From NCBI GenBank assembly GCA_028554645.1, contig JAQOOI010000069.1, positions 248,001-312,000 on the forward strand: a stretch of 64,000 nt of DNA, given 5' to 3'. Numbering within the stretch: the stretch's first letter is position 1; each line of letters opens with the position of its first letter. The position numbers were made by a program, and so were the translations under genes. Source of the stretch: Omphalotus guepiniiformis. Lineage: Eukaryota > Basidiomycota > Agaricomycetes > Agaricales > Omphalotaceae. This document shows, piece by piece, positions 562-49,086 of the stretch. The notes under the pieces were generated by a model that searched no databases, had not been told where the DNA came from, and was given only the letters and a program-made list of their open reading frames with translations.

Positions 562-562
562 T

Positions 563-5911: not shown

Positions 5912-5921
5912 AAGGAGGGGG
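5912..5921 (+). other. Polypurine tract
   Basis: AAGGAGGGGG, three bases before the 3' LTR, is the expected RNase H-resistant primer for plus-strand DNA synthesis. Confidence 0.75.
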
Positions 5922-5924
5922 TCA

Positions 5925-27541: not shown

Positions 27542-27620
27542 CTCTTCGTCGGTTGATGCCTCATTGGTTTGAGGATGAGGGTACTACTCAAGATCATTGA
27601 GGCATCGAACCGACGAAGAG
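27542..27620. repeat. Inverted repeat B1, 22/23-bp arms
   Basis: Arms 27542-27563 and 27598-27620 are reverse complements with one extra base. The 34-base loop matches the reverse complement of the sequence next to the single arm in the paralogue (about 48169-48203), so loop and left arm look like an inverted copy. Confidence 0.8.
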
Positions 27621-27752
27621 CCTGGGTCGCCTGGTCCGGAAACCCCATAAACCATCAACACCTCAGGTAACTGCATATCCTCCTGATACCTCTCACAAGC
27701 CGACTCCCCACCAACAATAACCTCCGAGTCATTTCCCTCAACAAAACCAGGA

Positions 27753-27820
27753 ACCCTTTATCAAATGATTCTTCGCATTGCTTATTTGAAAGTGATGCGA
27801 AGAATCATTTGATAAAGGGT
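27753..27820. repeat. Inverted repeat B2, perfect 26-bp arms
   Basis: Arms 27753-27778 and 27795-27820 are exact reverse complements, with a 16-base loop. Only the right-arm type of sequence, next to the GGGTCAAAGTTTCAATCGTG block, is kept in the paralogue at about 48397-48430. Confidence 0.85.
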
Positions 27821-27979
27821 CAAAGTTTCAATCGTGAACGTACTCCCACAAAGAACACACAAAATCCTATCAAGCAAATGTTGCCTCGTATGTTCCCAAC
27901 AACTTGTCGAGTGGTAGGACTAGACGACAAGTTATTCCAAGAACAACGGGCAAAACTTTGTAGACCCCAGTTTCATCTC

Positions 27980-28063
27980 CAACCAGTGTGGGTTGGTGAG
28001 TCTGAGTGAAGTGTTTTACACTTTTAAAACACTTCACTCAGACTCACCAACCCACACTGGTTG
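27980..28063. repeat. Inverted repeat B3, perfect 38-bp arms
   Basis: Arms 27980-28017 and 28026-28063 are exact reverse complements, with an 8-base loop. A decayed version of the same palindrome is present at 48625-48702, so this one predates the duplication. Confidence 0.88.
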
Positions 28064-28447
28064 AAGTCGTCGGGTTGATCGCTTGGGGTCGCGGAGATTT
28101 TGACAGGTGACGAGTTCCGTGGGGTGGCAGACGTAGAGGGAAGGGATGACCGAGTTTATTAAGGGCCAGTTTCATCCTCCCATTTGTTGACTCCGGCCTC
28201 ATCATGATCAACGCCAAGATAATAATCATCATAATTCGTCCACTGATCCCTCACCGACACCATCCGAGTCGCCATTGCGATTAAGGTTCGGTTCCGCAAC
28301 GTATTTCTCAACATCGGATGGAGGAGTTGCGTATACGCTATTTTCCTTCGCAGTAGATTCCGTCGTCCATCGTCGCCTTTCTGAATCGAATTGGGGAGGT
28401 GCGAGGCGGGAGGTGGGAACGAACTTGATGTCGATGATTGGGGACTA

Positions 28448-29268
28448 CTAATGGCTATAGAGGAGGGGGAAGGGGGGAGCAGGTATTGAGGGAAAACACT
28501 CGGCTGTCAGATGATCAGGTCTTACCACTGTGACTGCGTTCTCGTACGACTCGTATGAGTATTGGGTTCCTTCGACCTGCGACTGCGTATTTTTCTGTAC
28601 CGAGGTGATATTCTCTGATATGAACAGCTTCTTCTTTCTTGGAGCTGAGTGGGAATTGGCAAACGCTGCCGTCGAAGGGGTTTGAAAGGCAACAGAGGAA
28701 AGTGTCGTTGGCGTGTGGGAGGGGGGTGCATTCAAGGAAGTCGCCGAAACCCCAAATTCGGTTGGGTAAGCGCCGTCCAGCTGCGTGGCATGTTCGTGAA
28801 AGTCTTGATCTACGATACACGAAGTCGAGAAGGAAAGTGTCGTTGGCGTGTGGGAGGGGGGGTGGTATTGCCCCGAGTTGGAGTTTTTTTGTTGTAGAGT
28901 TAGGAGGTGTCGGGTAGTACTCCGCGTCAGCGACTTGAAGAAAGTAAGTGTTGTCGTTGGATAGTGGTACTGCTGAAGAATCAACCGCGGATCGAGGAAT
29001 TAAACTCGGGTCCTGAGCGAAATCCAGGTGAAGCTCAAGCTCAGTGGCAGCCCGAGCCTCCTGCTCAGCCTGGCGCGTGTCGTATGTCAACGAGAACATA
29101 GGTTGTTGTTCAAGCCTACAGAAAATCAGAACAAAACTGTGAGTTGTCTTTGATCGTTTGAGTCGAAGACGAAGACGAAGACGAATCAACTTACGCCGCG
29201 AGTGACTGTGCTAGATCGTGATTGAGAGGATAGGTATAGGTATAAGAACTGGAGTCGATGATCGCCAA
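28448..29268 (-). pseudogene. Zinc-finger paralogue B, start codon lost
   Basis: Homologous to paralogue D (49087-49787) over its length and to paralogue A at the first exon and promoter. The position of A's ATG is TTG here (29268). The first exon is otherwise kept up to the donor GTAAGT near 29190. The second exon (about 29120 to 28515) is open and carries TYDTRQAE, DPSLIPRSAVDSS, and one Cys/His cluster C...DGSVCQFPL...HIREYHLG. It lacks the strong C-terminal fingers of A. A near-31-bp direct repeat (28697-28727, 28832-28863) flanks a segment that matches paralogue C (46897-46984), a sign of exchange between copies. Confidence 0.55.
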
Positions 29269-29703
29269 AGTGTTTAGAATAGGAGTTTCGTGATTGGGGT
29301 GGGGTAGATAAACACGGAAATTAAGAGGAGGAATGAGCGAGAGCGCGACTTGTTTTTAAACCACCCCTTAACCGTGACTCAGGTGACCGTATTTGTTTGT
29401 GCTCATAGTATTTTGTGGCTCATAGTCACTTGAAGTCCACTCGTAGGTCCAAGCTCCGGTAGCCATTGTGAATTTCAAGGCCACTGTAGGTTATTACCAA
29501 ATCAATACAATACGCACATCAATTGGTACCGGAAACGTTCATGATCAATGGCCCGTTCAATGGGTTCAATGGAGTTCTGAATTTCCAAATCCTCATCCAT
29601 GTGAAATCGCAAGGAAATAGTAGGCCAACCTAGTATGATATCCGAGTTCATGTCCCAGGAAGAATAAGACTGGACTGACAAAAAATGTATCATGATCAAG
29701 TGA
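29269..29703. other. Promoter-like spacer of paralogue B
   Basis: Homologous to 25612-26050 and 49788-50220. No gene. It ends at the insertion target ACTTATC (29704-29710). Confidence 0.55.
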
Positions 29704-29710
29704 ACTTATC

Positions 29711-30743
29711 CTGCGGTTTTTAAGGGTTTCCTCCCACGCCCCACGCGCGTATCAGTTGCCGACGTTAGCCGACGCGTGAATAAAGTTTGATCCCGATGAC
29801 GTGAGCTAGCTGACGAGAGGCCTCCACTTCAAGCAAGTGCCGCGAGGGGTAGTCTGCTGACCTCAGCGTTCCAGACGAGCCCTTGCCGCTTCCAGCTCTT
29901 CACGGGCTCGTCCGCGGACGAGCCCGTCTGAAACCGTCAACCCGGTCCTTGGGTCCGCCGAGTTGCACGGTCACATGGTCACTGCCACCACGCCTCCGAG
30001 CCTGCGACTTTTCTGTGTAGGCAGACTAGGACCCTCAAGTTCAAAGGGTAGGTCTCGTGGTCTCATTGTAATACCTCTACTATAGCCTGTTGGCCTGAGG
30101 AGTACATAAAGACCAGAGAATATAGACTATTTATTATTCTGAATGCTATCTACACTCACCAATGGCCTCTTGTAACAAAAGGATGTAAATAAGTGGTAAG
30201 TTGGGTGAAATAAGTGAAATAAGTGCTCGATAAGTTGTGTTTTAAGATAGCCGACTTAAAACACGCGTGTTTTAATCACTTTTTTAAGGCGGCAGCGTCG
30301 GCGAGAGCCCAGGAATCAGCTTTTATGGGTACCTGTAGGTAATTGATGTAAAATACCTCGTTGGGCCATCAATTTTTGATTGTAAGTGCCGGATGCGGCA
30401 GGAAATAGCTGTGGTTGCTCACACCGCATGTTTAGTCCATTGAAATACATGTATACTACTATGTATACTACCTGTACCATTATACATGTCTACATACACA
30501 CATCTGTCTGTAAGGCATATAATTTACTACATGGCCAGCTAATTTTTGGGCTATGTCAAGCAGCAGGCTCCTGTGAATAGTAACTACTGATAGAGAACAG
30601 GTGCCCGAGCAAGAGCCGTGCACGGCACGAGTGGTAGCGAGCGAAGCGTGTTAGGCGTGTTAGGCGACGGAGATCCAGCCCTGATGGATTTAGGGTGCTG
30701 ACTAAGTTTTTATCGGGCCGACTAAATACGTTCATTTAAAGGG
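29711..30743. mobile_element. 1,033-bp non-coding insertion beside the KDZ element
   Basis: Flanked by ACTTATC at 29704-29710 and 30744-30750, a 7-bp target duplication. Removing it joins paralogous flanking sequence that runs continuously in spacer A, which supports a real insertion. No open frame of note and no clear terminal inverted repeats (ends CTGCGGTTTTTAAGG and CATTTAAAGGG). It contains a perfect 26-bp palindrome (29902-29927), a 10-bp-arm hairpin (30237-30264) and the palindrome GCCGTGCACGGC (about 30625). Class unknown: perhaps a non-autonomous DNA transposon. Confidence 0.55.
29902..29927. repeat. Perfect 26-bp palindrome without spacer
   Basis: ACGGGCTCGTCCG is followed directly by its reverse complement. 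A further GACGAGCCC lies just upstream (about 29874). It may extrude as a cruciform or bind a dimeric protein. Confidence 0.8.
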
Positions 30744-30761
30744 ACTTATCTACAGATGATT

Positions 30762-31146
30762 CACCTCGACATCACGTTATTTCGGATCACCGGACCTGGT
30801 AGTTAACCCGGGTGATGGCAGGGCTCCTGCCCTTGATCCCGTTAGTTCTCGGTAGTCCCAATATTTAGATGAATAAAGGTCAATTTTACCATTCAGGAAG
30901 GAGTCTAGAAAGCCCAATAGACCATCATGATATAAGACTTCTCGTGAGCTGCAAGTCCGTAAGTCCGAATGTCCGTTATTTCCGTCCCGTCTGTCCCGAG
31001 ATATCCACATGGTCCGCTCATCGCCATCAAACTCCTTCTCAACGTCGTCCAGCGTCGTCCCGCCTCTCGCTTAACGTCTCTCACGTATCCTCCCGCCATT
31101 CCTTCGCTTATTCATCGCCGTCCCGTCAAACGCTTCGCTTGTGTGC
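30762..31146 (+). repeat. Left terminal inverted repeat, 385 bp
   Basis: Reverse complement of 41488-41872 with about two C/T differences. It diverges just after CTTCGCTTGTGTGC. The outer part has subterminal short palindromes, for example GGTAGTTAACCCGGGT. Probable binding site for the transposase. Confidence 0.95.
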
Positions 31147-31291
31147 CCCTCCCGCTCCCTCTGTGTCTCTGTTCAAGACCCTTTGCCTTCCTCACTGCAA
31201 TTCCCTTAGACAAACTTATGTGTTCAATGCATTAGAGGGCATGGCATCTCATATTAGGTAATGTAAACAGAGGCTGAGGCGTCTAAGATTA

Positions 31292-33048
31292 CTAGCCCGA
31301 AGTGCTACTAGTGCAAGGTACGGACCCGCTGTGATTGTCTACTGAAGAGTTCTCCTTCGTATCTAGATACACGGTCAGCCGTATCATACAGGTATGATCA
31401 TAAAACTTACTGCGTTTCTTTCTCGGCTTGCCCTTGTCACTGCGCTGCTTACGTTTCTTCCCAGTAATCGCAATCGGGTTTCCGTTGAGGTCAGTAACGG
31501 CGGTGGAGTTGACGAAGTCTGTGGTGAGCGGGGGCACGAACGATGTAGCTGGAGCAGCGAGCGCTGGGCCTGCCTGATCTGCCAAGGCGGTATCCACTGT
31601 TGAGTGAGGAAGTTCAGGGACGGTGGGCTCGATTACAGCCTGAGCACTCAGACTGTCAGAGCAAGCATCCGACTCGGCCTCAGGCTGCGAACGTGCCACC
31701 TCTCGTGCAGCTGCGTCTTTGGCATGGTACGCAGTGCACCATTCGTCGTGCTCCAATCTTGACATGGTGTAGAAGTGCGTGGTACCTGACTTCCACGCGT
31801 TCGAAAGTGTATCGAGTCCGGCCCGGGTGGAGACTTCGCTGGGGCTGCACAAGGTGGATAGTGGCCAATTCTTCAGCAGTACGCCGTATGGAAGGGTGAT
31901 GTACTTGTCAAAGTTCACGTAGTACATGCGAGGGACTTTGTACTTTCCACACGCTTCCTCTGAAGACATAGGGTGAATTTCATCAAATACTCAGGACAAG
32001 TGACTTACGAAGTTTTCTAAGGATCGTCTCGCTCAGTTCCTTCCTGCGCTGCTGGTTCTGCTGCGCATGACTTCGAGTAACACCTTCGACACCCGAAATC
32101 ACAAATCCTTCAAGCCGGGGACCTATATCTTCAAGAGGGGTCTTATATACCAGATTGAAGAACTCCGCCACACGGTCGCTTGTCGCAAACACCTCAGGTT
32201 TATTGTAGTGTGTCACCAGGGACCGTACGGTGATTAGCACAGATTCATCGCCCGTTCGTGAATTGAGGCGGGTAAGCTAAAGTCTATCAGGTGAGCTAGG
32301 CCATTAAAATGTAATACACACTCACCGCAACCTTGATGTCATCCAATGTGATGCGCGTGTCCTGAAACGCGCTCAGACCTGCGTTATGAGAGCCTACTTC
32401 ACGATTCTCTCTGGTCTCATGAAGCTCTCTCAACACATCCTCAGTTCTTTCCACCTTCTCTTCCTCGGTGAGGTTTCTCCAAGTCTCCGAAATCTCAGTC
32501 ATACATTCATTTGCTTTTTTTCGAAGCTCGCCCTCAGGAAGCTCTGTAATACGAGAACGATCAGCAGGAACATAATGAAGCAGCTTGAGCTTACCTGCAT
32601 TGATGCGCGCCAGCTCTATTTTCACGAACGCGTTGAATCTGTTCGCAGGCTTGCGGTTCGCTTTGAGTCGGTGAGTCTGCATAATGTCGTCCACAATTTC
32701 GTTGACACTATGCTTCCCATGTTCCTCATGCAGCTCGCTCGCCTTGTCGAAGATGAGTTGGCGTAATTCAATGATGGCGTCCTGGTATTTTGTCTTCTCT
32801 TGAAGAGACTTCGCCTTCTTCCTAGCCTTCTCTTCCTTAGTCAATTGAGGGCGTGTGCGTTTCGTGCGGTGCCTCCAGGGCTTCCGCTTCAACATTCCAA
32901 CCTTTCGTGAAGCGCTGAGCATGCGCTCGAAATTCGTTCCCTTCTTTACTCTCCCCATGGTGTGTATGGTGTTTGGAAGACTTGTGACGGTTTCAACAGA
33001 CTCCGATTTTTGTTTGTCCCAGTCTTTCAGCTGTAATCTTAGATCCAT
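31292..33048 (-). CDS. HMG-box-like accessory protein of the KDZ element
   Basis: Three exons, 33048-32326, 32276-32009 and 31959-31292, close in phase to 552 aa. An alternative start at 32958 (MGRVKKGTNF) would give 522 aa. The N terminus is strongly basic (MLKRKPWRHRTKRTRP, then a KARKKAK helix). The central region resembles an HMG box: RFNAFVKIELARIN, then ETWRNLTEEEKVER, then LRELHETRE, the Trp and Phe core of DNA-bending HMG domains. The C terminus is acidic and Pro-rich with a basic patch (GKKRKQRSDKGKPRKKR). An optional 48-bp in-frame intron may lie near 31404-31357. Likely binds or bends element or host DNA. The HMG assignment is by pattern only. Confidence 0.65.
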
Positions 33049-33118
33049 GATACAAAACCAAAATTTGAAAATTGGATTGATGGTGATTTTAGCATATATT
33101 GTAGCTCTAAATTATGGA

Positions 33119-34596
33119 TTAGAGCAAAGTATAGACGTCCCACAGGTAATGGGCCGACTTGTCTGAAAAGCTGTAAGCTTCGTTCATTGCATCGACGAAC
33201 AATGTCTCATTCTCCGCACTATAGAATAAATCCTCGATCCTATCGATGTCGTTCGGGGCAAAGTCGTGTGCCGAAAGATAGCGATGCGCCCATGCGTGCG
33301 ATCGCCTCGGTTGGTCCTGCACCCGGCCCTTTCCTTTACCCCTACTCGTGGTTTCTGCAAGAAGTTATTAGCCAAATGACCCATGTATTCACCCTCAGAG
33401 GCGGAACGAGTGCGAAATTTGAGTAGTAAGAACACGAACCTTCGTTCTTTGAGCTTGGGTGAGGACTGAGCAGACCACTTCGTCCTGCCTGTCGTGAATC
33501 AACTTTAGGGGTGCGAGGGCTGTTGTAAGGGCGGCTATCACAGCTGGACGGCAAATCTCCGACTCCAACTCCAGGTCTAACTCTCGGAGGTGTCACCGGG
33601 GGTGACTGGGCAATAGAGATGTTGGACATGGCATGCATGACCGACTGTGGGAGGGGCTGTCCTGCCACATTCGTGACCTTTTGCCGGATAGCTTCAGCCC
33701 GCACCGGATCGCGAGAGGGATGATAGTCGTACAAAAGATTACTGGGGACTTTTGAAAGAAGCACACTTGAGATAAAGGCGTCCTTGAATGTCGTGAATAC
33801 GAATGCACGGCGAAATTTGACCTCTTTCGCAGCGTCCAGACTTGCAAAGGCTTCATTTCTGCAGGAAAGCCATCAGTGTATCACAAAATGATAGCGGGTG
33901 CAGGCGTACACATCAAAATAGAGCCCTGGCATTTCACCAACCCTTACATCAAAAAACAAACCGCCTCGGCCATCGATCATTGCGCATACATCTTGGAATG
34001 CCTGCGCCACAACAAGCTGCTCAGCGAAATCGTGATTGTTGAGAAGAGAATGGTCCATTGCCCAGTCCGCAAGGCTGCGATAAATGAATGATGCTTCTCG
34101 CGCGGTATTGCACTGTATAGATATGGGGAGAGGGTCAGCGTTCTTCCCCCCTTTCCGCCATTGCCTGCAACTAGGTCAGTATACTCAACTCGATGCACAA
34201 CAACAAACCTACATTTCTTCATGTGTACCACCGTTTTCGCCCGCACGATTAGTGATGTAGACGTATCGGCTAGCTTCCAGCATGAGAGTTAGATTGTGAG
34301 AGTGAACACACTGAGCGCTGAGTTTACATTGATAAAATCAAATACAATGACCCACCTTCAACTTTGCGGAAATGTTCTATGCGTGTCACGTGGATCGTCG
34401 GAGTTTGAATCGTGTTCAACAGTGTTGAACAATGAGAGCGTTGAACGCATGACCAAGTCGAAACCGCCAGGTATGCGCAGATCATGCATTGGAGCTCTCT
34501 GGAATAAGCTATCTGGCCTGCATCTTTGAATACTCGCGCCACGGGAATTCGAAGTCTCGCAGGCCGGTGATCTTTTTCAGAGGGCTTTGGGGGCAT
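33119..34596 (-). CDS. Unknown Pro-rich protein of the KDZ element
   Basis: Multi-exon; only part of the model is firm. The first exon is 34596-34465 (MPPKPSEKDHRPARL...), followed by a tiny exon (NISAKLK) and an exon ending near 34213 (SRYVYITNRAGENGG). Later exons carry SLADWAMDHSLLNNHDFAEQ (about 34060), FASLDAAKEVKFRRAF (about 33840), a Pro/Ser-rich linker (PPVTPPRVRPGVGVG), and finally HAWAHRYLSAHDFAPND with stop at 33119. The product would be about 370-400 aa. No family recognised. Its position between the HMG-like and TET/JBP genes, inside the inverted repeats, marks it as element cargo. Confidence 0.5.
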
Positions 34597-34687
34597 TCTG
34601 ACGCGTTTCTTTTATTACAAGACTTACAAGACTGACGGCTACATCACAGATCCTTCCGCAAACTCGAAGGTTCTGTCACCCATCGAC

Positions 34688-36253
34688 ATGAGTAATTTCG
34701 ATTTCGCCGGCGCCTTACTCAATGCTTTGGGAAACGAAGGTCTCTACGATAAACTTGATTACGCACCCACATCAGCAGATCCTCCTCAATCTCTCTCTCC
34801 AGCCACGTCGCCATTTTCGTCTCCCCTTTCCTCCCTTCCTTCTTCCACTAGCTCTTCTCCCCACTCCTCTCCACCATCTAGCCCAATACTTCTCCCTCTT
34901 TGCTCTCTTGACGATCTACTACCTGAACTCTCCCCCATATCCAAAACCAAAAAACGGAAGGCCGAACGTTCCAAACAGTCCAGCAAGAATAATCGAAACA
35001 AAAAGCGCAACTTGGAGGGGCCGAAGTCTGCTGAAGATATTCCTGCGCGGTCTTCAACGCATGCAAAACATGTGGAGGGCACTCATGCACTTCGTGCAGA
35101 TTTTTCAATGAAGGATGATGCCGCAGTTGCGTCGACTAGCTACGTAGGACTCAGGGATGAGGGAATTGATTATGCTGAGGGTGCCTATTGGTTGGATGAG
35201 GTGGTGGGCCCGAACTCAAAATTCAACTTTGATTTGGTGTCTTGTGAAGCAGGGTATGGTGCCACTGCATGCATCGCTTATTGATACTGACAAAATTTTT
35301 CAGGACCTCCCTTCCCTTCGTCGACGAAGAAGATCGCCTATTTGGGGTGTTAGTGAGGCCAACAGATGACCCGAGCTGGAGGAAATGTGTTAGCGCTGCC
35401 GGGAATTTGATTGAAAAGCTTCGCTCCAAGTGTCACTTTACTGAGAAGCAGACCACTCACCGTAGAGGCGACTTCCCTGCATTGTCGTGTGGAATTTCGC
35501 ATGGAGGAGGACAAACAGTGAGTACGCAGTTAAGGCGACGATGTTGTGACCTCACCTATACTTTAGTGTCCGGGAAATCTCATACATAATGCACACAACA
35601 GTCATGTTTTGAAGAAACTTACCGACCACTGGTCATTCCAGAGACTATCCGGCTTTGCCACTGGTAGGTTTGACGCCCCTCTCAATGGAACGCTGAACAC
35701 TCACACTGGTTCAGGTATTTTTAAGGCTTGGGCTCCGCGACTATATGAATACTACTCCACCCATCTTTCTCGGCTCCTCAACAATGATGACACTCTTGTT
35801 CGGTTATTCAAAAACAGTGTTTGTGCAGCTGCGGCGTTCAATTTTGGCCCGCGCACCGTGACGTACCCTCACATCGACTTTGCAAATCTACCCTTCGGCC
35901 TATGTTTCATCTGGAGCTTGGGGAGGTTCAACCCAAAGAAAGGTGGCCATATCATTCTTTGGGATTTGAAAAAGGTTGTCGAATTCCCACCAGGCTCTGT
36001 CGTTGTCATTCCTTCAGGTGTATGCCGCCACTCGAACACTCGCGTATGGAAAACCGAAACTCGATACTCGTTCACGCAATATTCAGCAGGTGGATTGTTC
36101 AGATGGGTTGACCATGGATTTCAGACAGAGGAAGACTATCAGAAGCGACAGACGAAGCAGGAAGCAAAGGATGAAAAAGTGAGAAAGCGCAATAGATGGC
36201 AGATGGGCTTAGGACTCCTATCTACTCTACAAGAGCTTGGACTCAAAACATAG
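34688..36253 (+). CDS. TET/JBP-family 2-oxoglutarate/Fe(II) dioxygenase
   Basis: Four exons (34688-35253, 35304-35517, 35567-35663, 35715-36253) close in phase to 471 aa. Residues 1-160 are a Ser/Pro-rich tail with basic KTKKRKAERSKQSSKN. The catalytic domain has the fungal TET/JBP signature: HID (Fe ligands H345 and D347), GGHIILWDLKKVVEFPPGS, RHSN (Fe ligand H398) and RYSFTQYSAGGLFRWVDHGF (R409 for 2-oxoglutarate). All catalytic residues are present. Family members oxidise 5-methylcytosine or thymine in DNA. In mushrooms they are expanded and linked to KDZ transposons, as here. The likely role is to alter methylation around the element; the substrate is not proven. Confidence 0.92.
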
Positions 36254-36671
36254 AACTTGACATTTGTATATTGGTAGCACAAATACAATGATTACTGTTC
36301 ATTATTTCTTCGTAAGACAATTAGAAAGTCTTAGTTCTATTCAGATGATGCAGTGGGTAAGACGATGGGCTTTGCGTAGAACACGTAGATAAATGAACGT
36401 TGTGAATCGGAATGTGTTCAGAATAACATCTACCTACATTTCAGCGACTCAGTTTGTGCGGTATATGACATTGGTTTGACTGTACGGCTATGTTCCTTAG
36501 GTCTTAATTGCTCAACGTTTCTCTAGCAGGAGGTATTCGATGGTCGACGCTGCGCCTGTGGTGATATTTGGATCCATATGCGTGGTGATATTCAGTAAGG
36601 CGGACGTTGGCTGACCTTGGTACTGCTAATGTCATTATGTCACAGTTTGTGACTCACGCTTCTCAAACCCG

Positions 36672-37302
36672 ATGCATCAACGGACGCGAAGGATCGAGTT
36701 CAATACCTTAGCTCCTCTCATCAAGATCCTACCTCCAAAGGACATAGAACAGGAGTATCTAGAACAGGAGTTGCTTGCTGAGGGACTGGTCGACCCAGCT
36801 CAGGTGGATAGTATCATTGATTTTCGCAATGGTCTCCGACGAGCTTGTCGAAAAAAACTCGCCTCTCGTCAATACTATGAGAAGTAAGTCATTTTATTTC
36901 ATTTTCAAGCTTTGTTGAGCTGGCCTGACTTCTTAGTTTTATAGACACCGAGATCGTATCTTGGAGAATGCTCATGCCGCGAACTTAAGGTATGGTGAAC
37001 TCGCTTTCTCATTCATGAATTCAAGTAATTGGGAGATTCATCTTTGAAAGGCGCGCTGCAGCTTTGCGCAATGCTTCCTCTGAGGCACAGGAGATGTTCA
37101 ACTCAAAGCACCGTGACGCTCAAGCTCGATATCGCGCCGCCAACCGTCAACGTCTTGCGGCCAAGGAGAAAACCCGTCGTGAACAGCAGCAGAAGGTATG
37201 TTTTATATTCTTTCTTCAGATACAACCGGTGATTCATCTCTCCAGGCTAAAAAAGCTGCCGAGTTTCTGCAAGCAGTAGCTGAGACCGAGCAGATGGTCT
37301 AA
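36672..37302 (+). CDS. Small basic helical protein of the KDZ element
   Basis: Four exons (36672-36883, 36945-36989, 37051-37195, 37246-37302) close in phase to 152 aa. The first half is acidic with leucines (IKILPPKDIEQEYLEQELL). The second half is a run of short Arg/Lys-rich helices (KHRDRILENAHAANLR, then RDAQARYRAANRQR), like the many small Arg-rich helical proteins of mushroom genomes; possibly a nucleic-acid-binding coiled coil. No named domain. It lies on the same strand as the TET/JBP gene, 419 bp after it. Confidence 0.6.
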
Positions 37303-37608
37303 ACACTCAACGGTGGAGTCCTCAAGTCGTTTGCATTGGAGTAGCCTTCCCTATTCACGTTGTCGTCTGCGAGACCAGTCCTGTGAAGTCGTGCGCTTAT
37401 GTCTTCATCCTTCCTCTTCTTACATGTGTCCTCTATTTCACGTTGTCGCCCGTCGTACTCCTTTATCATTATCATTCCTCTTCTACAAGTATCATCTATT
37501 TGGAAGAATATTATTTTTTATTCAGACAAGCAGACAACTCCTTGAGATGTTTGTATCTAATGGTGGAAAGACATTCCATTCCTGAGAAGAACATAATACA
37601 AGAGTACA

Positions 37609-40600
37609 TTAAAGTGCAAGGTTTGTCATAAAATCAACCAACTTTCCACCCTCCTCAATAAGCTGGTCATCATCAGCATCTTCACCCGAGTCTGATTCAT
37701 TGCCTGTATTGGCAAAGGTTCTGTGTGATGCCATACCGGAAGAAAACCCATCCGACGAAGCATGCGGTACCTGCATATCGGGCATCGTCGATGCGGCGGA
37801 GTTTTGCTTAGCAACCCCTGGGTGTGGTACTCCAGCGAAGCCAGGTAATGCGTAAATCTGGTGAAGGCGCTCCAATAGAAGTCGGTTTCCTGCTTGTCGT
37901 CGATGTATGTAGTCACTAACAGGACCCAACATGACACCAGACTCGAGACGAAGAACGACAGCGTCAAATTGACATTGCTCATCGACTATGGAGGTGTGAA
38001 GTCTTCGGATCTCTACATTTAAGCGCGTGATCTCCTCGCGTGCACGCATCACACGGCGATAGGTTTTCATCAGATTGCGCTTGACAGGGTCTGTCCACGG
38101 TTTGTCGAACACGCTGTGGCGAGTGTCGCGGAGGATGTCGAACTGGTCAAGAAATGAGAAATGCGAGACTTTTGACCAATCTAACATTGGACGGGGAGGA
38201 TCCAGGGATTTGGCAGCCTCGTTGTAGTCCCTGACAGCTTTTCGTATAGCTTTTGATCGCCTCTGCAGTGCATGAGCAATATGCGTGCGCATGCGATACC
38301 CTAGAATGAAACTATCAAAATTGAAAGTCATGAATGATCAAAGGGAAAACGTACCTGTCTGTGAAAGATTCATCTTGTGAAGCTCAAAAAGCCGTTGAAC
38401 AACCAGCTTATGTAGCTTCTCCAAAGCTTGTCGGTATTTCCTTGTATTCATGTACAGAACAGCCTCCCTGTAATCCTTTGAAGTGGGTGCCCAACGTTGA
38501 TCAATCCCCATACGCGCCTCCATCTGCGTAAGTTCAAAGAGTAACTGATCGCGCTTCTGAGATATAAAGCGACGCCGAGTCTCTGTTCTCCGAGTTTCTG
38601 ATAGATCGATACCGTACGACTTCTCGGACACAAGGAATTGATAGTCGGAGGGGATTTGGAGACGGAACGATGAATTCACGTTCTCATAGGCGGTGCTACG
38701 GTATGACGGTGAGAGCACTGATCTATTGTTCAGCATGAGTAGGACACTCACTTGATATCCCTGTACTTCTGTAAAAGCTCCACGTAGGCAATCGCATGCA
38801 GATCGTCTTGAGCCTCTGTGCCTAGTTCCTCCATGTGATTAGCTTCATCTGCGAAGTATTCCTCAAGCTTGTCTTCACTGAGCTTAAGATACTCGAGGTC
38901 ATGTTGCAACATCGGACCTTCCTCGCTGATGATATCGAGTGCCTGAATGTAATTGTTGTACAGCATGGTACCAAGATTAAGATACTTGTCGTCATCCCAC
39001 TGCTGGAAGAAAGCATTGATTGCAAGGCGCCGACGGTAAGAACTCATGAAGCGAGTGACAGAAGCGAGTTGATTAGATGCGGAGAAAATACGTTCCATCG
39101 TTTCCAGATCTTCAAGACCCATGCCAAGAATATTGAGGGGGTGATGTTGTCGCTGGCAATTGGCATCGTGTGTGTAACCATGGAAGGCGTTTACACAAGT
39201 CCTGCATTCCTTCATCGTGAATTCAGCTCCCAGCGAGCTGTTTGACACCGTGACGCCGAAGCTGCATCCAATGTCATAACCCATGAGCCATCGCGGACCA
39301 AGAACTTCCAAAGCCTTCGCTACGAGGGCAAGAGGATACTTGGCACTAAGCCATTTGGTAAGCAAAATTTGAATTATGTCAACTGAACTTTTCGACGCAC
39401 AGCTCACCACTCCGGATCATGTCCACAAGCCATAGAATGAAACCATGTCGGCAAGCGCTAGCGAAAATCCCCGACTCGTGAAACGCATCCCACATCCGCT
39501 TGGCTGAGTCGGAAGCGGCAGCTTTGAAATTGGTTCTGCAGCCTCGGAACGACTTGTCCTCCTCTGAAAATCCATCCGTAGGGTCTCCACCTTCTAATCC
39601 GACTCCTGCTATGGCGTCCTCATCATCTTCGTCGTCCTCGTCATTGTGAACTGGGGCAGTTGGCTCGGATCTTGGTTTGACTTCCCCTGCATACTTGTTG
39701 ACAAAGTCTTCTGATAAGAAGTAATCACTTTCTGTAAATATCCGAGTGTCGGCAATCTGTCGCCCCTGAATGCCCTTCATTCGCTTAAGAGAGTTGTTTC
39801 CATCAACGACCCACATACGCGAATATTTGAGTGACGGCTCGCCCTCGAGCTGAATAAAAGAATGAATGTGTTGATGTGCTGCTTGAGAACTTGGAGAGAT
39901 ATGCGTACCTCATACGTACAGGCTGGGCAGCTGTGCAGAACACGATAGTTAGGTGTATCATGGTTGAGTTCACGTGCAATAAGTGCATCTACCCTGCGTC
40001 GGATGGCTAGATAGATATCAAATGCATCAGATAGCGCCGTGCGGTAGCTACGTCGGTACGGGATCTGAAGAGTATGTTGAGTGGAGTTGAAAAGCATTCT
40101 ATTTAGACAAAATTTTACCTACCATGTACTGGTAACAAATGACTTTGGTGAATGCTTCGACGCTGAACGATGCTTTGAATAGTCTGGTGACACGGAATAG
40201 CTCGAGCGTTTTGAAAGATAGCGCAAGCGACGGGAACTGAGGCGAGACCGCAAGATAGCCGGCTCGAGCAAGCGCGATAACGACGTCATCTTCTGGCTTT
40301 CGGGGAATTGTTGCAACACGCTCGAGTCCATAGATATCAACAATATCAATTTCAAAGGTGTTGTCGACGGAGGTAGCGTTGTCGGTCCCTGCATCTTTCA
40401 ATCCTGACCCATATTTCCATCCAATGTAGGTTTCGGTGAGGGCGTCCATCAAATCCACCCATTTTTCATTGAAGAGCCGAAGGCGCCGTTTCCACGTCCG
40501 TGAATCCTTGTATCGACGAACTCCATGCCACCTGTCGTACGAAGGATTAGTGTACCAAGCAGTATTTGTAGTTAGTTATTGGTACCTGGTTAATCCAACC

Positions 40601-40996
40601 ATATCCCTCAAATCATAGACTATACTCTCTACTTCGTGACCAGATTCTCCAAGCTCTTCATTGGCTGTGTCTCCCATCACAACATCTCCCTGATCAATAC
40701 CAACATCGAGATTGTTGACCCGGTCATCGCCTGTAGCACCTGAAGGCTGTCCTGAGAGTTCGTCTAGTGTCTGAAGAGTTTCGTTACTGAGACCTGTTAA
40801 AATCAGTCAGGAAGAACGAATTCAAAGGCGTAGACATACCCTCAACAGAGCGATGATAGCGCTCCTTGGCCTCCTTTTGCTTTTGAACCAATTGACGCGG
40901 TCCAAGAGCCTTAGTAGCGCCAGGGCGGCCAAAGCGGCCATTACCAACAGTGAATTTGACGGTGTTTGAAATGCTGCTTGACTTCCGTGATCCCAT
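37609..40996 (-). CDS. KDZ-type transposase
   Basis: Eight exons (40996-40840, 40793-40586, 40531-40123, 40064-39909, 39849-39401, 39345-38752, 38722-38355, 38300-37609) join with closing phase to 1010 aa. Key blocks: CPACTYE (zinc-cluster remnant), WVVDGNNSLKR with the first catalytic Asp (D326), SACRHGF, SGELAKYPLA, GYDIGCSF with the second (D484), CQRQHHPLNILGMG and MERIFSASN with a candidate catalytic Glu (about 544), then a long helical C-terminal region ending in an acidic tail. These are the hallmarks of Kyakuja-Dileera-Zisupton transposases of mushrooms. One exon junction uses donor GTGCGT. No frameshift or stop was found, so the enzyme may be active. Confidence 0.92.
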
Positions 40997-41487
40997 GTGA
41001 TTAAGCCGCTGAGTATAGATTGTTGTGAATGAAGAATGAGTGAGAGCTGTTATTGATGAAAGCTGGACCAAGCTTACATAAGTCTCGGGATTATGCCGCT
41101 TATTGAATATTGAGCGCCCCGACGATTCGAAGCTGCCGAGCAGCAGGCGGAATGACACCTGAGAGACATGGTAGTGACTCGAATAATTGGAAAACTGGGT
41201 GGCGAGATGAGAGCTGCGACGGGATGGTCATGCAAGAGTGAATGGTGGGAGGAATAAGTGAAAAAAGGCGGGAGTGCACAAGAACTGAGATGCACCTCTG
41301 AATGACCTTGATTAAGCAAAGCGGGGGCGGGAGATGTTGAGACGACAATGACCATGGAGGCACGCGGAGGAACAGGAAGAAACCTTGACTACGCGAAAGA
41401 TAGTAAGCGAGGGTCGTTAATGGAGAGTCGGGACAATGTTGAGGAGGCATTTGATGGTGATGAGCGAGCAGGGAGGGGCTGGGATAC

Positions 41488-41872
41488 GCACACAAGCGAA
41501 GCGTTTGACGGGACGGCGATGAATAAGCGAAGGAATGGCGGGAGGATACGTGAGAGACGTTAAGCGAGAGGCGGGACGACACTGGACGACGTTGAGAAGG
41601 AGTTTGATGGCGATGAGCGGACCATGTGGATATCTCGGGACGGACGGGACGGAAATAACGGACATTCGGACTTACGGACTTGCAGCTCACGAGAAGTCTT
41701 ATATCATGATGGTCTATTGGGCTTTCTAGACTCCTTCCTGAATGGTAAAATTGACCTTTATTCATCTAAATATTGGGACTACCGAGAACTAACGGGATCA
41801 AGGGCAGGAGCCCTGCCATCACCCGGGTTAACTACCAGGTCCGGTGATCCGAAATAACGTGATGTCGAGGTG
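41488..41872 (-). repeat. Right terminal inverted repeat, 385 bp
   Basis: Inverted copy of 30762-31146. Long open frames read through this region on the minus strand, but they mirror an equally open frame in the left repeat and cross the boundary into unrelated sequence, so no gene is called. Confidence 0.95.
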
Positions 41873-41880
41873 AGATGATT

Positions 41881-43571
41881 AATCCAACCCAGGACTCCCA
41901 GGACTCTATCACAACATTTCCATCTCAGAAGTCAAACTCAAGTCGAGAGTTTATCACCGCCGCCGCTCTACAGACTGAGCGCTGAACCCTGCCGTGCGTA
42001 GTGATAGTTCGATCTTTCTTCTGAGTCATGGCTCTCGAAGAAGCAACCGGAGCAGGACGGACTCGCTCTAGCTCAGCTCATCGGATTTCCAAAGGACCAA
42101 CTGGAATAGCGCCCCGATGTTCCTCCGCTATGAGAGATTTCAGAAGTATCTTGGGTTCTAACGTCGTCGGAATCGGAATTCGGAATCGGGGGGTTGTTGG
42201 TAATACCATATTTGAGTGTGGACCGATAGAGCAAACTGGGAGGGAGGTGACAGAGCCCGACTCGGCGGGGGTGGGAGGTTGAGGGTGGGATTGGGAGATT
42301 AGGAGATTAGGAGATTTCGATTAGGAGCAAAGCTAGCTAGTGAAGCTTTGAAGGGTTGGCTAACCGGAAGCACCCAGGGGGATATGAGCAAAAAGAATCA
42401 GCGAATATTCATTAACACTGATAACAAATCCCACTTTCCCTTGACCCCAGCCTAATCTCCCTGCCAAGACCCAAAAACACGCTCGAACCGAAATCTCCAC
42501 CACTAGCTCGCTTTACAATCAACCAATCGCGGCGACGATATAGCACAGCGCATCATTCTCGTCACGCACCAAACCGAAATCTAACTGCGCAAGACAAGGC
42601 TTCAGAGGGACAGGATGGGGATATGCGTTCGTGGGTAGTAGGCTGAGAGAAAGGGAAAGGTGAACTGTGGGAGGAAGGGAAGTGCGAGATGGGTACGATG
42701 TGAAGGGAACAGTGGCGGATTAGTCGGCATCGAGTGAATCTTGTTGTCGCAAATGAATCATGTTTTGGACCTGCAGGTGTATGTTCGATACCGAGATAGA
42801 CAGGGAGGGAGGAAAAGAATGCACCAGGGCATAGCGATCAGGAGGATCAAAGGGTGATGCCCACTAGCACTCCCGTGTCGCCGCAACCGCACGGGACCCG
42901 GAAGGGTTGGGTTTGAAGGATGTTTAGGGAAGAGTGATACTATCATTTAGAGTAATGTCCTGGAACTACAGCGCAGAGTATCTTCTGGGTTCGGTTCAAC
43001 AAGTGTGTAAGCGCCAGTAGTTCGAAGATATTTGGGGAGCGACGAGGAAAGGGGAGGAATTCCGGATTTATTTTATGCGGCCGAATTATTCAAGGATTAC
43101 ATGGTCTCCAGAGTCAGACCTCCATCTGCGGCAAATGCTCAGATACTTACAAGCTATCCTTGACAGTGAAGAGCCTTGACACTCTGAAGCCCCGCAAGGG
43201 TAACCAGCGCGTGCCATTAATAGAGAACTCATGAGTTGCTTTTGAGTTGCTTTTGAGTTGCTTGCTGACTTGGAGGTCTAGGATATACAACTAATAGTAA
43301 AAGGTAAATAGAAGAAAAGAGCATAGAAAAACTCTCACTAGTCTTCCTATCCAGTACTTGCTACAAGATCCTCGAAGGGTTGTAACACCCTGCGTCAGAT
43401 TTTCAACGGACTTGAGAATTCTTGGAATCTCTCCGAGAGAGGAGCGCGTAGTGTATCACTTCATACGCGGCATACACTGTAGGCGTCTTTCAGAGATTGT
43501 ACAAGCGGTCACCGGTGAGCGCTTGAGCGCTTGAGCACTGTGTTCCAAGTCTTTGACTCTTTTTCCCACGT
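41881..43571. repeat. Tail of zinc-finger unit B, and intergenic DNA
   Basis: No gene. 41881-42510 is homologous to 26400-27070 and 50220-50760; 42640-42850 (GTGCGAGATGGGTACGATGT, then CCTGCAGGTGTATGTT) is homologous to 50755-50880. It was once joined to 29703, before the two insertions. Repeats of TGAGTTGCTTT lie near 43232-43262, and the dispersed repeat copy is at 43329-43500. Confidence 0.6.
43329..43500 (-). repeat. Dispersed repeat, copy 2
   Basis: Minus-strand homologue of 16821-17010 without the poly-A tract. It begins about 70 bp before the F-box gene, on the opposite strand. Confidence 0.6.
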
Positions 43572-45059
43572 ATGTCATCCCCAAGCAACGCACCGCTCTT
43601 ACGTTATGTAAGCCGTGAAAAAGGCACTGTCATGAAAACCCTCCCATTCGAACTAATCCAGTACATTATATCTTTCGTTCATGACAGAAAAACCCTTCTC
43701 GAGTGCAGCCTCGTCTCACATTCCTTCCTTACTGCAACCCGCCCCCAGATCTTCTCCGATGTCCTTCTAGATGACAAATATCCCACCCATACCTTCCTAG
43801 ATCTATGCGAGAGCCCGCTCTGTACAATCCCTCTGGGACGTGTGCATAAACTTGAATTGCATGATCCTCAAAGAACGTGTGTAATAGAAGACGTCTTGGA
43901 CTGGGAAGCTCTGGATGGGAGAACACTGAATAGCTTAATGGGAGAAACGGTGAAGGAATTATGGATTGCGAAGGTTCACTGGGACTTGATCCACATAGCA
44001 ACGGAAAGAAAACCCTGTGATGACTGCTTTCGTGGCATTACAATTCTCAACATGCGTTCTGTTACCTTTGGTAACGCCGAAGAAATTGGGACGATCGTTA
44101 ATTCATTCCCAATGCTTCAAGAGTTGGTTTTGATTGACATCGAGGCTGATTTCGAAGAGGTAGAGGACTACGATGGTGGTGCCCCCCCGAAGAATTTGCG
44201 TACGATTTCCATATATAATATGGAACGTAGACGTGAAGTTTTTGACCAGCTTGTACCATACGGCCCAACGCTGCATCATTTTACGTGCATCCTTGGTCCC
44301 ATTGCCATCGATAACGATGAGTCTCCTTTGGTCTTCCCCGCAATTGGTAGTCTGCTACGCGAAGCCAGGTCTTTGGAAAGTGTCACGTTTGGTGCGTTCA
44401 TTGATGCAGATGATCATGAACCCCTCGGTGAGGTTTATTACTCTACATAACATACACTGGCTTATACTTGTTCTCTCGAAGACGATTATCTCACACACAT
44501 CAATTTCTCCTGTAACCCCTGCCTGCGCCACCTCGATCTGGACATATCGCCCGAGTATCTAGTGATACCTCTACTCAAACGCATTGCTTCTTCTCACAAC
44601 TATTACTGGTCTTCCACTCAAACAACTCCAACCCCGACCCTTGAATCTCTCGAAATACCCGACCTTACAACACCAACCGACTGGTCAACCTGTGACACCA
44701 TCCTCCAAAAACCCTACTTCTCCTCTCTACGCGAGATTACATTCAGGCCGCCCAAACAAGCCTTAAGCTTTCGGCCAGAGGACCTCGACCTCCCGACATC
44801 TTTAGCTACCGACAACCAGAGTGACAATGGGGAGGACATTGCAGGGTTCTCTTCGCTGAGAATTACACTCGATGGGGACAAGATACCTGGTTTCCCTCGT
44901 CGAGGGACACTTCCGCATGCTAGGATAGCTGAAAGGCTGGAGATGCTTAAGAAGAGCTTACCGCTATGTTATGAGCGTGGGGTGTTGAAGCCACATCTCG
45001 AGTGTCTTACTATCGATGGGGAATACTTTTTGCGGTTCCGTGAACCGCCTAGTCCATGA
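43572..45059 (+). CDS. F-box protein
   Basis: Two exons, 43572-44427 and 44482-45059, close to 477 aa. The F-box is near the N terminus: MKTLPFELIQYIISFV, then LLECSLVSHSFLTATRPQIF. It would bind Skp1 and act as the substrate receptor of an SCF ubiquitin ligase. The remainder has irregular Leu-rich segments (LQELVLIDIEADFEE, LRHLDLDISPEYL) that may form degenerate leucine-rich repeats for substrate binding. The start could be at 43572 or at the internal Met (codon 21) just before the F-box. Target unknown; such genes are very numerous in mushrooms. Confidence 0.88.
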
Positions 45060-45149
45060 GGTAATGATGGGAAGGAGAGATTCTATATGCCCTTTTTTTT
45101 CGTGTTTTTCTTGCAGACTCGGAAACTATAGCTTGTACTCGTAGTATAC

Positions 45150-45795
45150 ATGCATGTATCCCTCAAATCCAATCGAGGAGGTATTTGCGATGCTTTATCG
45201 AGTAGAACCTTCGCCTTGCAATAGGTGTTCTTCAATATTACATACTTCTTCCTTTATCCTTCTGTCAAAGAGTCCTTTGTATTCATCGAAAACGAGGCAG
45301 ACTGCAGTTCCAAGTTTTTATCATGTGATACGGTACCTGAGCTATATAGTTAACCTAAGTCAGCCACTTCCGAGTCTATCTTATTTCTTTCTTCTTTATC
45401 CTATCCTTTGTTGAGATGCGCGACCTTTCTCACCGGACGCTGCAGCAGCAGGCTGTATGTTGTCCGGTGAGACCACTGAGGATTCGTCTACCACTCTCCT
45501 TCTCACTCTCCTTCTCAAAGTTCTCAAGCACACTCGTTACAAAACGCATTTATACGGGTAGGGTCGCGTGGAGGGTGGAGGTATAGAGACATGGATTGGG
45601 TGGGCAATCACGATAGGGTATGTATTGTATCGTTCTATGAAAGACTTTCAGCTCACATTCTCATGTTCTCGATACACAGTGTTCTTTCAAACTCCTTCAC
45701 GCACTCACACAACGATTCCGAGGAGTCATCTAAGGTTCGTTGATTCGTTCATAACTAATGCTATTCTAAACCTATCGACAGATACAGATACATGA
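45150..45795 (+). repeat. Segment repeated from 23.33-24.0 kb
   Basis: Second copy of 23330-24000, diverged and with small gaps. It keeps the 11-bp-arm hairpin at 45428-45472. Confidence 0.7.
45428..45472. repeat. Hairpin, second copy
   Basis: TCTCACCGGAC and GTCCGGTGAGA around a 23-base loop. The arms are identical to those at 23639-23680. Confidence 0.75.
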
Positions 45796-46425
45796 CGCGT
45801 ATAATAATCCGATACACTACGAACTACAACGTGCATATAATACGTGCATATAATCAAACAGTAAACCAGGTACGAAGGTCCATTGTCAAAAGTAAACGAG
45901 AGAGTATCTAACGAGTGGTCTATAGTAATTAATAATGAGATTCCATCCATTTCGTTTCGCACTAGTCCCCAGCACCTCACCCTCCGAAAGACCAAAGATA
46001 AAGACCAAAGACCGCGCGTGGCAAAGGATGCTGCTGCGTTTTGAGCAGCGCAGAAGATGATGATGAGGAACCGGATGAGATGGGAGTGCCGTCACGGTTA
46101 GTCGGTGTAGAGGCAGCCGCTCATGCCCTAGTGCATTTGCGTATGCAAAATTAGAACTCCCTCCACCTAAGGGAGATCATCGTTATTCTCAACTGTCTGA
46201 CCGACACTGTGCACCGCCGCTTCTTGAGCGCTCAGTTCTTCGTGTCTCCGGTTCAAAGCCAGGCCCAATACTCGCTGGTGTGACGCTTACCGGTACCCTT
46301 CGTTGCTCGGGCGTCGAAGAAGGTTGATATGCCGCTTCGACGAATCCATCACCTTCTCGCAAGTACTGCTTCACAGTGCGGACCTGCGCATACTGTCATG
46401 GGCGCGGTATATAAAGTCCCAAATT

Positions 46426-47360
46426 TCAGGGGTCATCAAGGTCAACCTGAAAGTCCATTGTCGCATCCTCAGTCCATTCCACACTCGTCGCACCCCCATC
46501 TACATTCGAAGGAACACTCTCCAGTACTCCTGCCCCTTGGGGTGTTGTTAACATCCACTGCATCAACCACAACCTTGCTAACCTTCCCCTTCCCTCAAGT
46601 TCCGACAATACCTCCTCTTCTTCCTCGCAACACCCCACTCGCCATCCGACTCCTGAGCCCACCTTTTCCGGATGCTCAGCATCGGTGTGTGCCTTTAACG
46701 AGTCTCCCTCTGCTATCACCCCACAGAAAGGACATATATGCTGAGCATGTATATGTCGCTTTAGCGAGTCTCCCCTCGCGAGTAGTACTTGCGTATGGGA
46801 TGGGGGTCGCGTTGCCCGAGTTGGAGTTTTTCGTTGATGAATTGGGAGGAGTAGGGCAGTACCCCACGTCAGCGACTTCCTTGCCCTTGCCCTTCAAGGA
46901 AGTCGCCGAAACTCCAAATTCGGTTGGGTAAGCGCCGTCCAGCTGCGTGGCATCTTGAACGTACTCACGATACCTGAAGTCGAGAAGTCCCATTGCGCCT
47001 GAGTAGATGGCCCAGGCCCGGCCAACGCGTTACCGTACGCGCTGTACGAGTTTTGGGTCGAAAGGCGCATTAACGCGTACTGGTACTCGTACGCGTATTG
47101 GGTCGACGGACCCGCTGAGGCATTCTCGTACTCGACGTACTCGACTTGGGTTGATGGACCCGCGATTGCGTTTTCGGCCCTCGTACGTCGATGCAGTGTG
47201 TGTTGTTGGGAATTGTGGTCGGGAACGATGATAGTTTGGAAGGGAGCGAGAGTGAGAAAAGGAAGTCCTGTCGCGTCGTTCGAATAAAATCGTGTGAGTG
47301 AGCCGCGTCGTTGACCGTTGAAGGAGATGAACTTACGATTGGGGTTTAGGCATCGTCTCG
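46426..47360 (-). pseudogene. Zinc-finger paralogue C, probably degenerate
   Basis: A possible start MPKPQS with donor GTAAGT near 47340. An open stretch follows with repeats of the type GPSTQ.EYEY (about 47000-47180), then DATQLDGAYPTEFGVSATS and PTPPNSSTKNSNSGN, shared with paralogues B and D. The best zinc fingers of this group follow in another frame: RGDSLKRHIHAQH, then CPFCGVIAEGDSLKAHTDAEH (a canonical C2H2), near 46655-46770. The change of frame needs either an unrecognised intron or a frameshift. The final Glu-rich part ends at 46426. Confidence 0.45.
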
Positions 47361-48338
47361 CGTCTCGTAAAACCTTGGGTGTCTAGAATGCCAGTGATAC
47401 TGTGGTGCGTGTTGAGAGTGTGGTGTTGGTGTTGTAGCACCGAAAGCGAAGTAATGTACATGTACAAGAACCAGCTGAGGAGGGTGGAGTTAGAATGAGG
47501 AAGTTTGGAAGATGCGTCGAGGGGTTTATATAGAAATCCTCACCTCGGGTGGGTGGTGACTGTGATTGTCGTCCTGAATGGATATGTTTTCATTCATCCA
47601 CTCGGTTAAAGGGTGTGCTTGTCTGCGCATAATGAAAGGTGTACAAACGTTCACGTGTTCCGAAAGCAACGAGCGGATTGTTCGGTTCGACCTTTATAAT
47701 CTTACCTTTATTACTAACTCACAAAGACCATTGAAACCTCGAACTTGTTTTACGTAGGTGTTTTGACCATGAGGAGAAAGCCAAAGAATCAAGATCAATG
47801 GGAGTCGGGGTTATGCTCTGGAGATAGATACCCTTGGGACTTTGTGATTCAGGAATGGAGGAGCACGTTGCATGTTGGGGCCTTTGGGATATAATGAATG
47901 CTTGAATGCCGCGTGTTGATCGTGGTTCAGAGCTCGTACTAGGTTGTAAGTAAGTAGCCTATTGAGTTCTTTTTTTTCGAGAGGTATAAAGGATGTATAA
48001 AGATTTGTTTGATCCTTTTGTTCGGCTTTCAATGCAGCTATTGTTTGTTGCTCTCACCGGAGCGTCGTTACCAATGATGTTTCCAGGAGACAACAAGTTG
48101 AGCTTTCTCGACGCAAAGAAAATAATGAAGGAAATACAGTTTTACAAAAGTAACTTGAATATAGGGCCAATGATCTTTAGTAGTACCCTCATCCTCGAAC
48201 CAATGAGGCATCAACTGACGAAGAGTCTGGGTCGCCTGGTCCGGAAACCCATAAACCATCAACACCTCAGGTAACTGCATATCCTCCTGATACCTCTCAC
48301 AAGCCGACTCCCCACCAACAATAACCTCCGAGTCATTT

Positions 48339-48396
48339 CCCTCAACAAAAACAGGACCCTTTATTCATTGATAAAGGGTCCTATTTTTGTTGAGGG
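48339..48396. repeat. Inverted repeat D1, 26-bp arms
   Basis: Arms 48339-48364 and 48371-48396 pair at 25 of 26 positions around a 6-base loop. The left arm matches spacer B (27738 onward); the right arm is absent there. Confidence 0.85.
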
Positions 48397-48448
48397 AATC
48401 ATTTGATAAAGGGTCAAAGTTTCAATCGTGAACGTACTCCAACAAAGA

Positions 48449-48535
48449 ACACACAAAATCCTATCAAGCAAATGTTGCCTCGTATGATACGAGGCAACAT
48501 ACGAGGCAACATTTGCTTGATAGGATTTTGTGTGT
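48449..48535. repeat. Inverted repeat D2, perfect 37-bp arms
   Basis: Arms 48449-48485 and 48499-48535 are exact reverse complements, with a 13-base loop that itself repeats ATACGAGGCAAC. Spacer B has the left arm only (about 27850-27887) and then runs straight into the CAACTTGTCGAG block. Confidence 0.9.
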
Positions 48536-48624
48536 AACAAGTTGTTACTTGTCGAGTTGGTAGGACTAGATGACAAGTATTCCAAGAACAACGGGCAAAA
48601 CTTCGTAGACCCCAGTTTCATCTC

Positions 48625-48702
48625 CAACCAGTGTGGGGTTGGTGAGTCTGAGTGAAGTACTCTTAAAACACTTCACTCAGACTCACCAACCCACACTGGT
48701 TG
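48625..48702. repeat. Inverted repeat D3, 33/34-bp arms
   Basis: Homologue of B3. Arms 48625-48658 and 48670-48702 pair with one inserted G; the innermost bases have decayed. Confidence 0.85.
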
Positions 48703-48757
48703 CGAGTCGTCGGGTTGATCGCTGGGGGTCGCGAAGATTTTGACAGGTGACGAGTTC

Positions 48758-48852
48758 CCTGGGGTGGCAGACGTAGAGGAAGGGATGACCGAGTTTATTA
48801 AGATGACCCTAATAAACTCGGTCATCCCTTCCTCTACGTCTGCCACCCCAGG
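48758..48852. repeat. Inverted repeat D4, perfect 43-bp arms
   Basis: Arms 48758-48800 and 48810-48852 are exact reverse complements around the 9-base loop AGATGACCC. In spacer B the left-arm sequence (about 28118-28162) is present, but the right arm is replaced by unrelated sequence before the shared CATCATGATCAAC block. Confidence 0.9.
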
Positions 48853-49086
48853 CATCATGATCAACACCAAGATAATTAATAATCATCATAAGTCGTCCAC
48901 TGATCCCTCACCCACACCATCCGAGTCGCCATTGCGATAAAGGTTCGGTTCGGTCCCGGCAACGTATTTCTCAACATCGGATGAAGGAGTTGCGTATTAC
49001 GCTATTTTCCTTCGCAGTAGATGCGTCGTCATCGTCGCCTTGGGTAGGTGCGAGGCGGGAGGTGGGAACGAACTTGATGTCGATGA

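Follow-up and report, generated by a model that had tools for sequence, protein, structure and literature searches.

Near-perfect hairpins in pseudogene copies of an Omphalotus guepiniiformis gene probably arose by repeated short-range template switching

In a 64-kb window of the genome of the basidiomycete Omphalotus guepiniiformis (contig JAQOOI010000069.1, positions 248,001 to 312,000), two gene-derived stretches, here called copies B and D, are densely set with long hairpins, and we found hairpins in six of the seven loci that a search of the genome with copy D scored (at least seven, as the counts are lower bounds). Most probably these hairpins arose by short-range template switching or fold-back synthesis, after which the same process corrected their arms. 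This reading is carried by arms that are inverted copies of local sequence, by the distribution of the hairpins over the copies, by divergence that preserved the pairing in three hairpins and by one inverted loop. The mechanism is a known one, and its local density in this family is very unusual.

Copies of the gene fragment and their hairpins

The assembly holds 42.5 Mb in 80 contigs, and the window lies on the contig labelled C72 (714,809 bases). Copies B (27541..28380) and D (48173..49041), both assigned to the minus strand, had been called spacers in the initial annotation of the window. Instead they are pseudogenes, truncated at the 5' end, that derive from the 3' coding end of a gene; the gene sense in B is the minus strand, and D is a copy of the same fragment. 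The other loci are labelled by contig. Hairpins were present in C53 (C53:21013-21598), C72a (C72:154503-155009), C72f (C72:325210-325704) and C7 (C7:149982-150473), and the remaining locus, C76 (C76:541417-541780), is the end of an open frame of 414 amino acids on the opposite strand and has no hairpin in the seven-copy alignment. C76 was taken as the pre-hairpin reference. The six hairpin-bearing copies match only the 3' part of the 414-amino-acid frame and contain stops or frame changes; open stretches remain in them by chance, for example one of 366 amino acids in C7.

Approximately 8 kb of aligned sequence is common to C72f and C7, and copy D shares about 3.6 kb with C53, 4.2 kb with C72a and about 2.5 kb with B. 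Over 440 non-hairpin columns the divergence was 3.0-3.9% among D, C53, C72a and the C72f/C7 pair and 0.2% within that pair, compared to 5.5-7.7% to B (misaligned H0 columns included) and 7.5-10.7% to C76.

We scanned 263,631 unique bases, comprising the window, the flanks of the copies, four contig ends and a few small loci, and thus mostly sequence near family copies or at contig ends, for inverted repeats with an arm score of at least 16 and a loop of at most 40. Nineteen of the 21 found were inside 5,962 bases of family sequence and two in the remaining 257,669; because some of the 19 are copies of one event, they stand for fewer than 19 births. The scan skips H0, which has interrupted arms, and H3b, which overlaps H3 by about 2 bases. 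The two non-family inverted repeats are H6, described below, and one scoring 19 at C72:8648-8720. Three Markov versions of the 64-kb window gave no inverted repeat with an arm score of at least 12 and a loop of at most 80. The observation in the initial annotation, which had called the density of palindromes far beyond chance, is confirmed. All seven palindromes that it placed in B and D were present, and their arms are, in every case, inverted copies of adjacent sequence, as it had stated for several of them.

H0 (27542..27620) occurs only in copy B, where the left arm together with the loop reproduces, in inverted form, the fragment edge plus a few bases of flank (59 nt, 94.9% to 48226-48168). 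H1 (27753..27820) is whole in B, with arms of 26 nt exact or 31 nt at 94%, and its right arm copies in inverse orientation the sequence that lies to the left. Copies D and C53 hold only the H1 tail, which in D is a right-arm remnant (48398..48420, plus strand), the same tail that copy B has. Within this former H1, D and C53 carry H1' (48337..48398; 28-nt arms with one mismatch, 96%), which we read as formed inside an earlier H1. H2 is found in C72f and C7. H3 (48449..48535), with perfect arms of 38 bp, is present in D, C53 and C72a. The 12-mer ATACGAGGCAAC forms a tandem pair where H3 turns (48487 and 48499; 48487-48510), as if the growing end had let go and re-annealed once during fold-back. 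H3b is whole in C53, and a scar in D (48536..48558, plus strand) is its probable excision remnant.

H4 is the only hairpin found in all six hairpin-bearing copies. Its form in B (27980..28063) has 39-bp arms, and the form in D (48625..48702) has 23 perfect pairs, a 1-nt bulge and about 10 more, approximately 33 bp in total. The B form, on the minus strand, gave a match to the Rfam family mir-1421 (RF04234) of 50.3 bits against a gathering cut-off of 45. No other match in the window reached the gathering level, so the H4 of copy D falls below the cut-off, and we take the match as a chance likeness of long stems. H5 (48758..48852), with perfect 43-bp arms in D, is present in five copies and replaces 34-36 bp as compared to C76; copy B lacks it and keeps the pre-H5 arrangement of the intact paralogue (28118..28195, plus strand). 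B and D are thus told apart by H0, H1', H3 and H5, together with the state of H1, and have H4 in common. The ancestral state without hairpin is seen in C76 for all hairpins, and in other copies too for every hairpin except H4.

H6 (C72:326001-326085) occurs only in C72f, at the end of a partial copy of a different repeat; the search found this repeat in two other places, and both have just one of the arms. Such a birth at the end of a rearrangement fits fold-back at a broken end. In six of the seven fragment hairpins (H1, H1', H2, H3, H4 and H5; judged by eye) the new arm lies toward the 5' end of the gene, with H0 as the exception, H3b not counted and H6 oriented the same way. This one-sidedness may reflect the direction of replication or transcription.

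Template switching and the later history of the arms

In the simple cases one arm matches the ancestral state and the second arm repeats the first in inverted orientation. A four-point template-switch fit was better than linear alignment in 10 of 13 comparisons, and it exceeded all 100 shuffled controls in 11 of the 13. The copied stretches matched in 33/34 positions for H1, 29/30 for H1' against C72f, 34/35 for H2, 41/42 for H3 and 42/43 for H4 of C72f, and matches were lower where the reference had diverged (H4 of B 38/42; H5 38/45 and 43/49 against C76; C53 43/46). H2 retains the ancestral bases and repeats 5, and H4 and H5 lose 26-36 bases compared to C76. The initial annotation had favoured recurrent template-switch or snap-back synthesis, and this is still the best reading, made firmer by the four further hairpin-bearing copies and the hairpin-free one.

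The distribution of H2, H3, H4 and H5 is compatible with one tree of the copies. We read the whole set as eight separate births plus H6, a count that depends on taking H1 and H1', and H3 and H3b, as separate events; from the distribution alone the strict minimum is six (H0, an H1-type hairpin, H2, H3, H4 and H5). Six to eight births in about 0.65 kb is an unusual number: the six copies with hairpins vary at 30 sites over 411 non-hairpin columns, and some of these sites reflect misalignment.

Once formed, the arms appear to have changed together. From the rate in the sequence between hairpins, 10.5 variable sites were expected in the arms of H3, H4 and H5, and 4 were seen, none of them unpaired (Poisson P about 3e-5). 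This expectation and one of 12.8 are stricter than a value of 13.6 that included misaligned flank columns, and it presumes that the arms are as old as the copies; H1, H1' and H2 lie outside the test. The variable columns were 4/66 in H4, 0/82 in H5 and 0/76 in H3, and those of H4 amount to two paired changes, both arms having CA in C72f and C7 and TG in the others. When 21 hairpins were folded, the plus strand gave 732 Watson-Crick and 6 G-U pairs and the minus strand 742 and 22, with 15 of the 22 in H4 folds that gained pairs over the plus-strand fold. Correction at the DNA level would explain both the paired arm changes and the scarcity of G-U pairs.

In D, C72a, C72f and C7 the H4 loop is ACTCTTAAAAC, the inverse of GTTTTAAGAGT. 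C76 has GTTTTAAGAGC in direct sense at the H4 spacer, with which the inverse of the loop agrees in 10 of 11 bases; the loop has two more A in C53, and B has a different one. Spacer inversion has been described as a mark of between-strand switching (PMC8604942). In the H5-bearing copies a left-arm base that differs from B and C76 lengthens the palindrome. H3b is intact in C53, shortened in D and shorter still in C72a, with the cuts lying between TTGTT and then TTGT repeats, and it was probably excised between such short direct repeats.

These observations suggest the following course. A fragment of the orphan gene would have been duplicated within larger segments and decayed as a pseudogene. 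DNA synthesis on it would repeatedly have switched strand, so that the nascent end took the opposite strand nearby as its template, or folded back on itself, for approximately 22-49 nt before it returned to the original template, each such error leaving a near-perfect hairpin. The hairpins would later have been corrected arm to arm and overwritten by nested events, with the probable excision of H3b as the loss in one series. As H1' is nested, H3b lies adjacent to another hairpin and the hairpin-free copy is still free, we infer that a first hairpin favours later ones, which would make the fragment a self-feeding hotspot.

Several points weigh against this reading. The four-point fit lost to linear alignment in 3 of the 13 comparisons, namely H1 of B against C72f, H5 of C72f against B and H3b of C53 against D. 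In the first two the aligner was limited, as it takes no 1-nt indel, and the fit of H5 to B is wrong (38/67); the third also scored below the shuffled controls, and H1' of D against B only tied the best of them, with a copy match of 20/28. The H2 loop of 1 nt is too tight for simple snap-back, so that inter-strand switching or a later loss of loop sequence would be needed. The presence of H1 in B, D and C53, and not in C72a, C72f and C7, fits no single tree, and thus either there was exchange between the copies or H1 had repeated gains or losses. Exchange between copies could also lower the expectation in the arm test by making the arms look younger, and so weaken it. Outside that test, H1' in D and C53 has one mismatch and H1 in B two G-U pairs, and the 1-nt bulge of H4 in D and C53 is an indel that the arm count does not include. 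The location of the hotspot is not explained by pre-existing structure. The pre-hairpin gene was not unusually structured, since its 13 windows had a mean DNA-fold z of -0.05 and the 152 other windows of that 10 kb a mean of -0.15, and this candidate cause was therefore set aside as unsupported.

Silencing, transposition and artefact as alternatives

The alternative that survives best, although we consider it unlikely, is that the fragments are young hairpin-RNA loci, whose arms came from the same error and were kept as Dicer substrates that silence the parent gene family. Hairpin-RNA and young microRNA loci in Drosophila and plants are made by inverted duplication of the target gene. The arms described here likewise derive from a gene family that could be a target, but they form several short hairpins in place of one long one. 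On the plus strand the folding energies of the 21 hairpins (45-95 nt) range from -30.6 to -91.1 kcal/mol, arm pairing was kept as the copies diverged, and the genome has Piwi-domain (Argonaute-like) matches on five contigs and three Dicer_dimer matches. Six of eight hairpin examples hold 21-mers with at most one mismatch to the intact paralogue, whereas the examples of H2 and H5 have no 21-mer within one mismatch of the intact gene. The few G-U pairs on either strand and the joint change of both H4 arms are more simply explained by DNA-level correction, and the probable excision of H3b indicates that hairpins are also lost.

Two further long paralogues (C76:368083-368528 and C76:526943-527391) bear on this alternative, since they lack about 490 bp that would span the sites of H1-H5, a loss that could be expected of a target that had escaped. 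The site of H0 is retained. The gap runs from just inside the left part of the fragment to a few bases from the right junction of H5, and the remaining frame of both ends out of phase. An insertion with target duplication in C76 was considered for this difference and rejected, as by eye the two shorter paralogues look deleted, not empty. A captured fragment might have become a multi-hairpin RNA locus against its parent family through a self-feeding template-switch hotspot, with two of the three long paralogues having escaped by deleting the 490 bp, but we hold this for improbable. If true, the family would show a fungal silencing locus in the course of its birth, with one hairpin added after another. 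A template error that makes hairpins and selection that keeps some of them may both hold.

Insertion into the fragments of one family of fold-back or miniature inverted-repeat transposons would account for many hairpins in several copies, but it is very improbable, because each hairpin has a sequence of its own that derives from the fragment. The searches with copy D and C76 matched only family loci and paralogues among the best candidates scored, and H4 and H5 replace sequence of C76 with no target duplicated. On arm origin and segment extents we reject the transposon family that the initial annotation had named as a possible refutation. The copies lie inside larger segmental duplications of differing extents, and at the printed fragment edges neither shared transposon ends nor shared terminal repeats with target duplications were seen (by eye; no formal search for target duplications was made). 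Some library methods are known to yield fold-back chimeras, but an origin of the hairpins in assembly or amplification is equally remote, since the same hairpins recur at separately assembled loci that are mostly 3-8% apart (0.2% for C72f and C7), with H4 junctions at six loci on three contigs, non-hairpin divergence of 0.2-7.7% and copy-specific substitutions; raw reads were not seen.

Genomic surroundings and comparison with known systems

The parent gene is an orphan, tentatively a zinc-finger-like one. The 414-amino-acid frame had no homologue at E ≤0.01 among 1955 candidates and its zinc-finger matches score below the Pfam cut-offs, so that the term zinc-finger-like is only tentative. The ratio of nonsynonymous to synonymous substitution rates (dN/dS) of the C76 gene was 0.76-0.80 against the two shortened paralogues and 0.37 between those two, and constraint on the parent gene is weak. 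A glutathione-transferase-like gene adjoins the C76 copy and has 30 relatives at E ≤1e-10; among the matches listed are those from mushrooms such as Gymnopus, Paramarasmius, Armillaria and Rhodocollybia at 42-45% identity, and the best match reaches 47%.

Other elements were seen in the window. An inverted repeat of 402 bp (98% identical) bounds 11.1 kb at 30761-41873, with a KDZ transposase match at 38751-39410 and outer flanks that share GATGAT, and the whole resembles a KDZ DNA transposon flanked by a target duplication of 6 bp. Direct repeats at 109-6384 (461 aligned bases, 99.6% alike) surround an open frame of 1192 amino acids with matches to protease, reverse transcriptase, RNase H and integrase, features that identify a young Ty3-type long terminal repeat retrotransposon by sequence; no target duplication was evident in its printed flanks. 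The window also has a DUF6729 match, and at 22962-23242 a tandem-repeated stretch in an open frame gave a weak C2H2 zinc-finger match below the Pfam cut-off.

Creation and correction of hairpins by template switching have been described (PMC8794818), and its authors argue that the process can create and help to maintain hairpins, with the evidence for maintenance being less clear by their own account. As in four-point template switching (PMC7954356, PMC8794818), local reverse-complement copies between close switch points give perfect hairpins in our family, point 4 may precede point 1, and tree-inconsistent patterns occur in multi-copy genes. In great apes 4017 significant events were reported over six genome comparisons, with a median copied length of 12 in the gold-standard set (PMC7954356), whereas the copies in the fragments are about 22-49 nt long and six to eight of them fall in about 0.65 kb of one family. 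Homogenisation of inverted-repeat arms has been described in yeast genes (PMC8604942), and there too arms become identical through paired changes and a spacer is inverted, as in H4; the yeast repeats considered here are 7-16 bp and mostly pre-existing, whereas the arms in the fungal fragments are long and arose anew. Many long perfect inverted repeats in gene-derived sequence are also known as coding palindromes of Nematomorpha mitochondria (PMC6649704), but those lie in working mitochondrial genes, and the fragment hairpins are nuclear, lie in pseudogenes and are absent from the open copy. Among the open papers listed as matches we found no nuclear hairpin cluster in fungal paralogues.

For the evolution of RNA and of genomes it is an open question by what route long perfect stems originate and what keeps them perfect. 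This one small family brings the steps together, from the sequence before any hairpin, through several separate births, one overwriting and the inversion of a loop, to paired changes in the arms and a probable excision.

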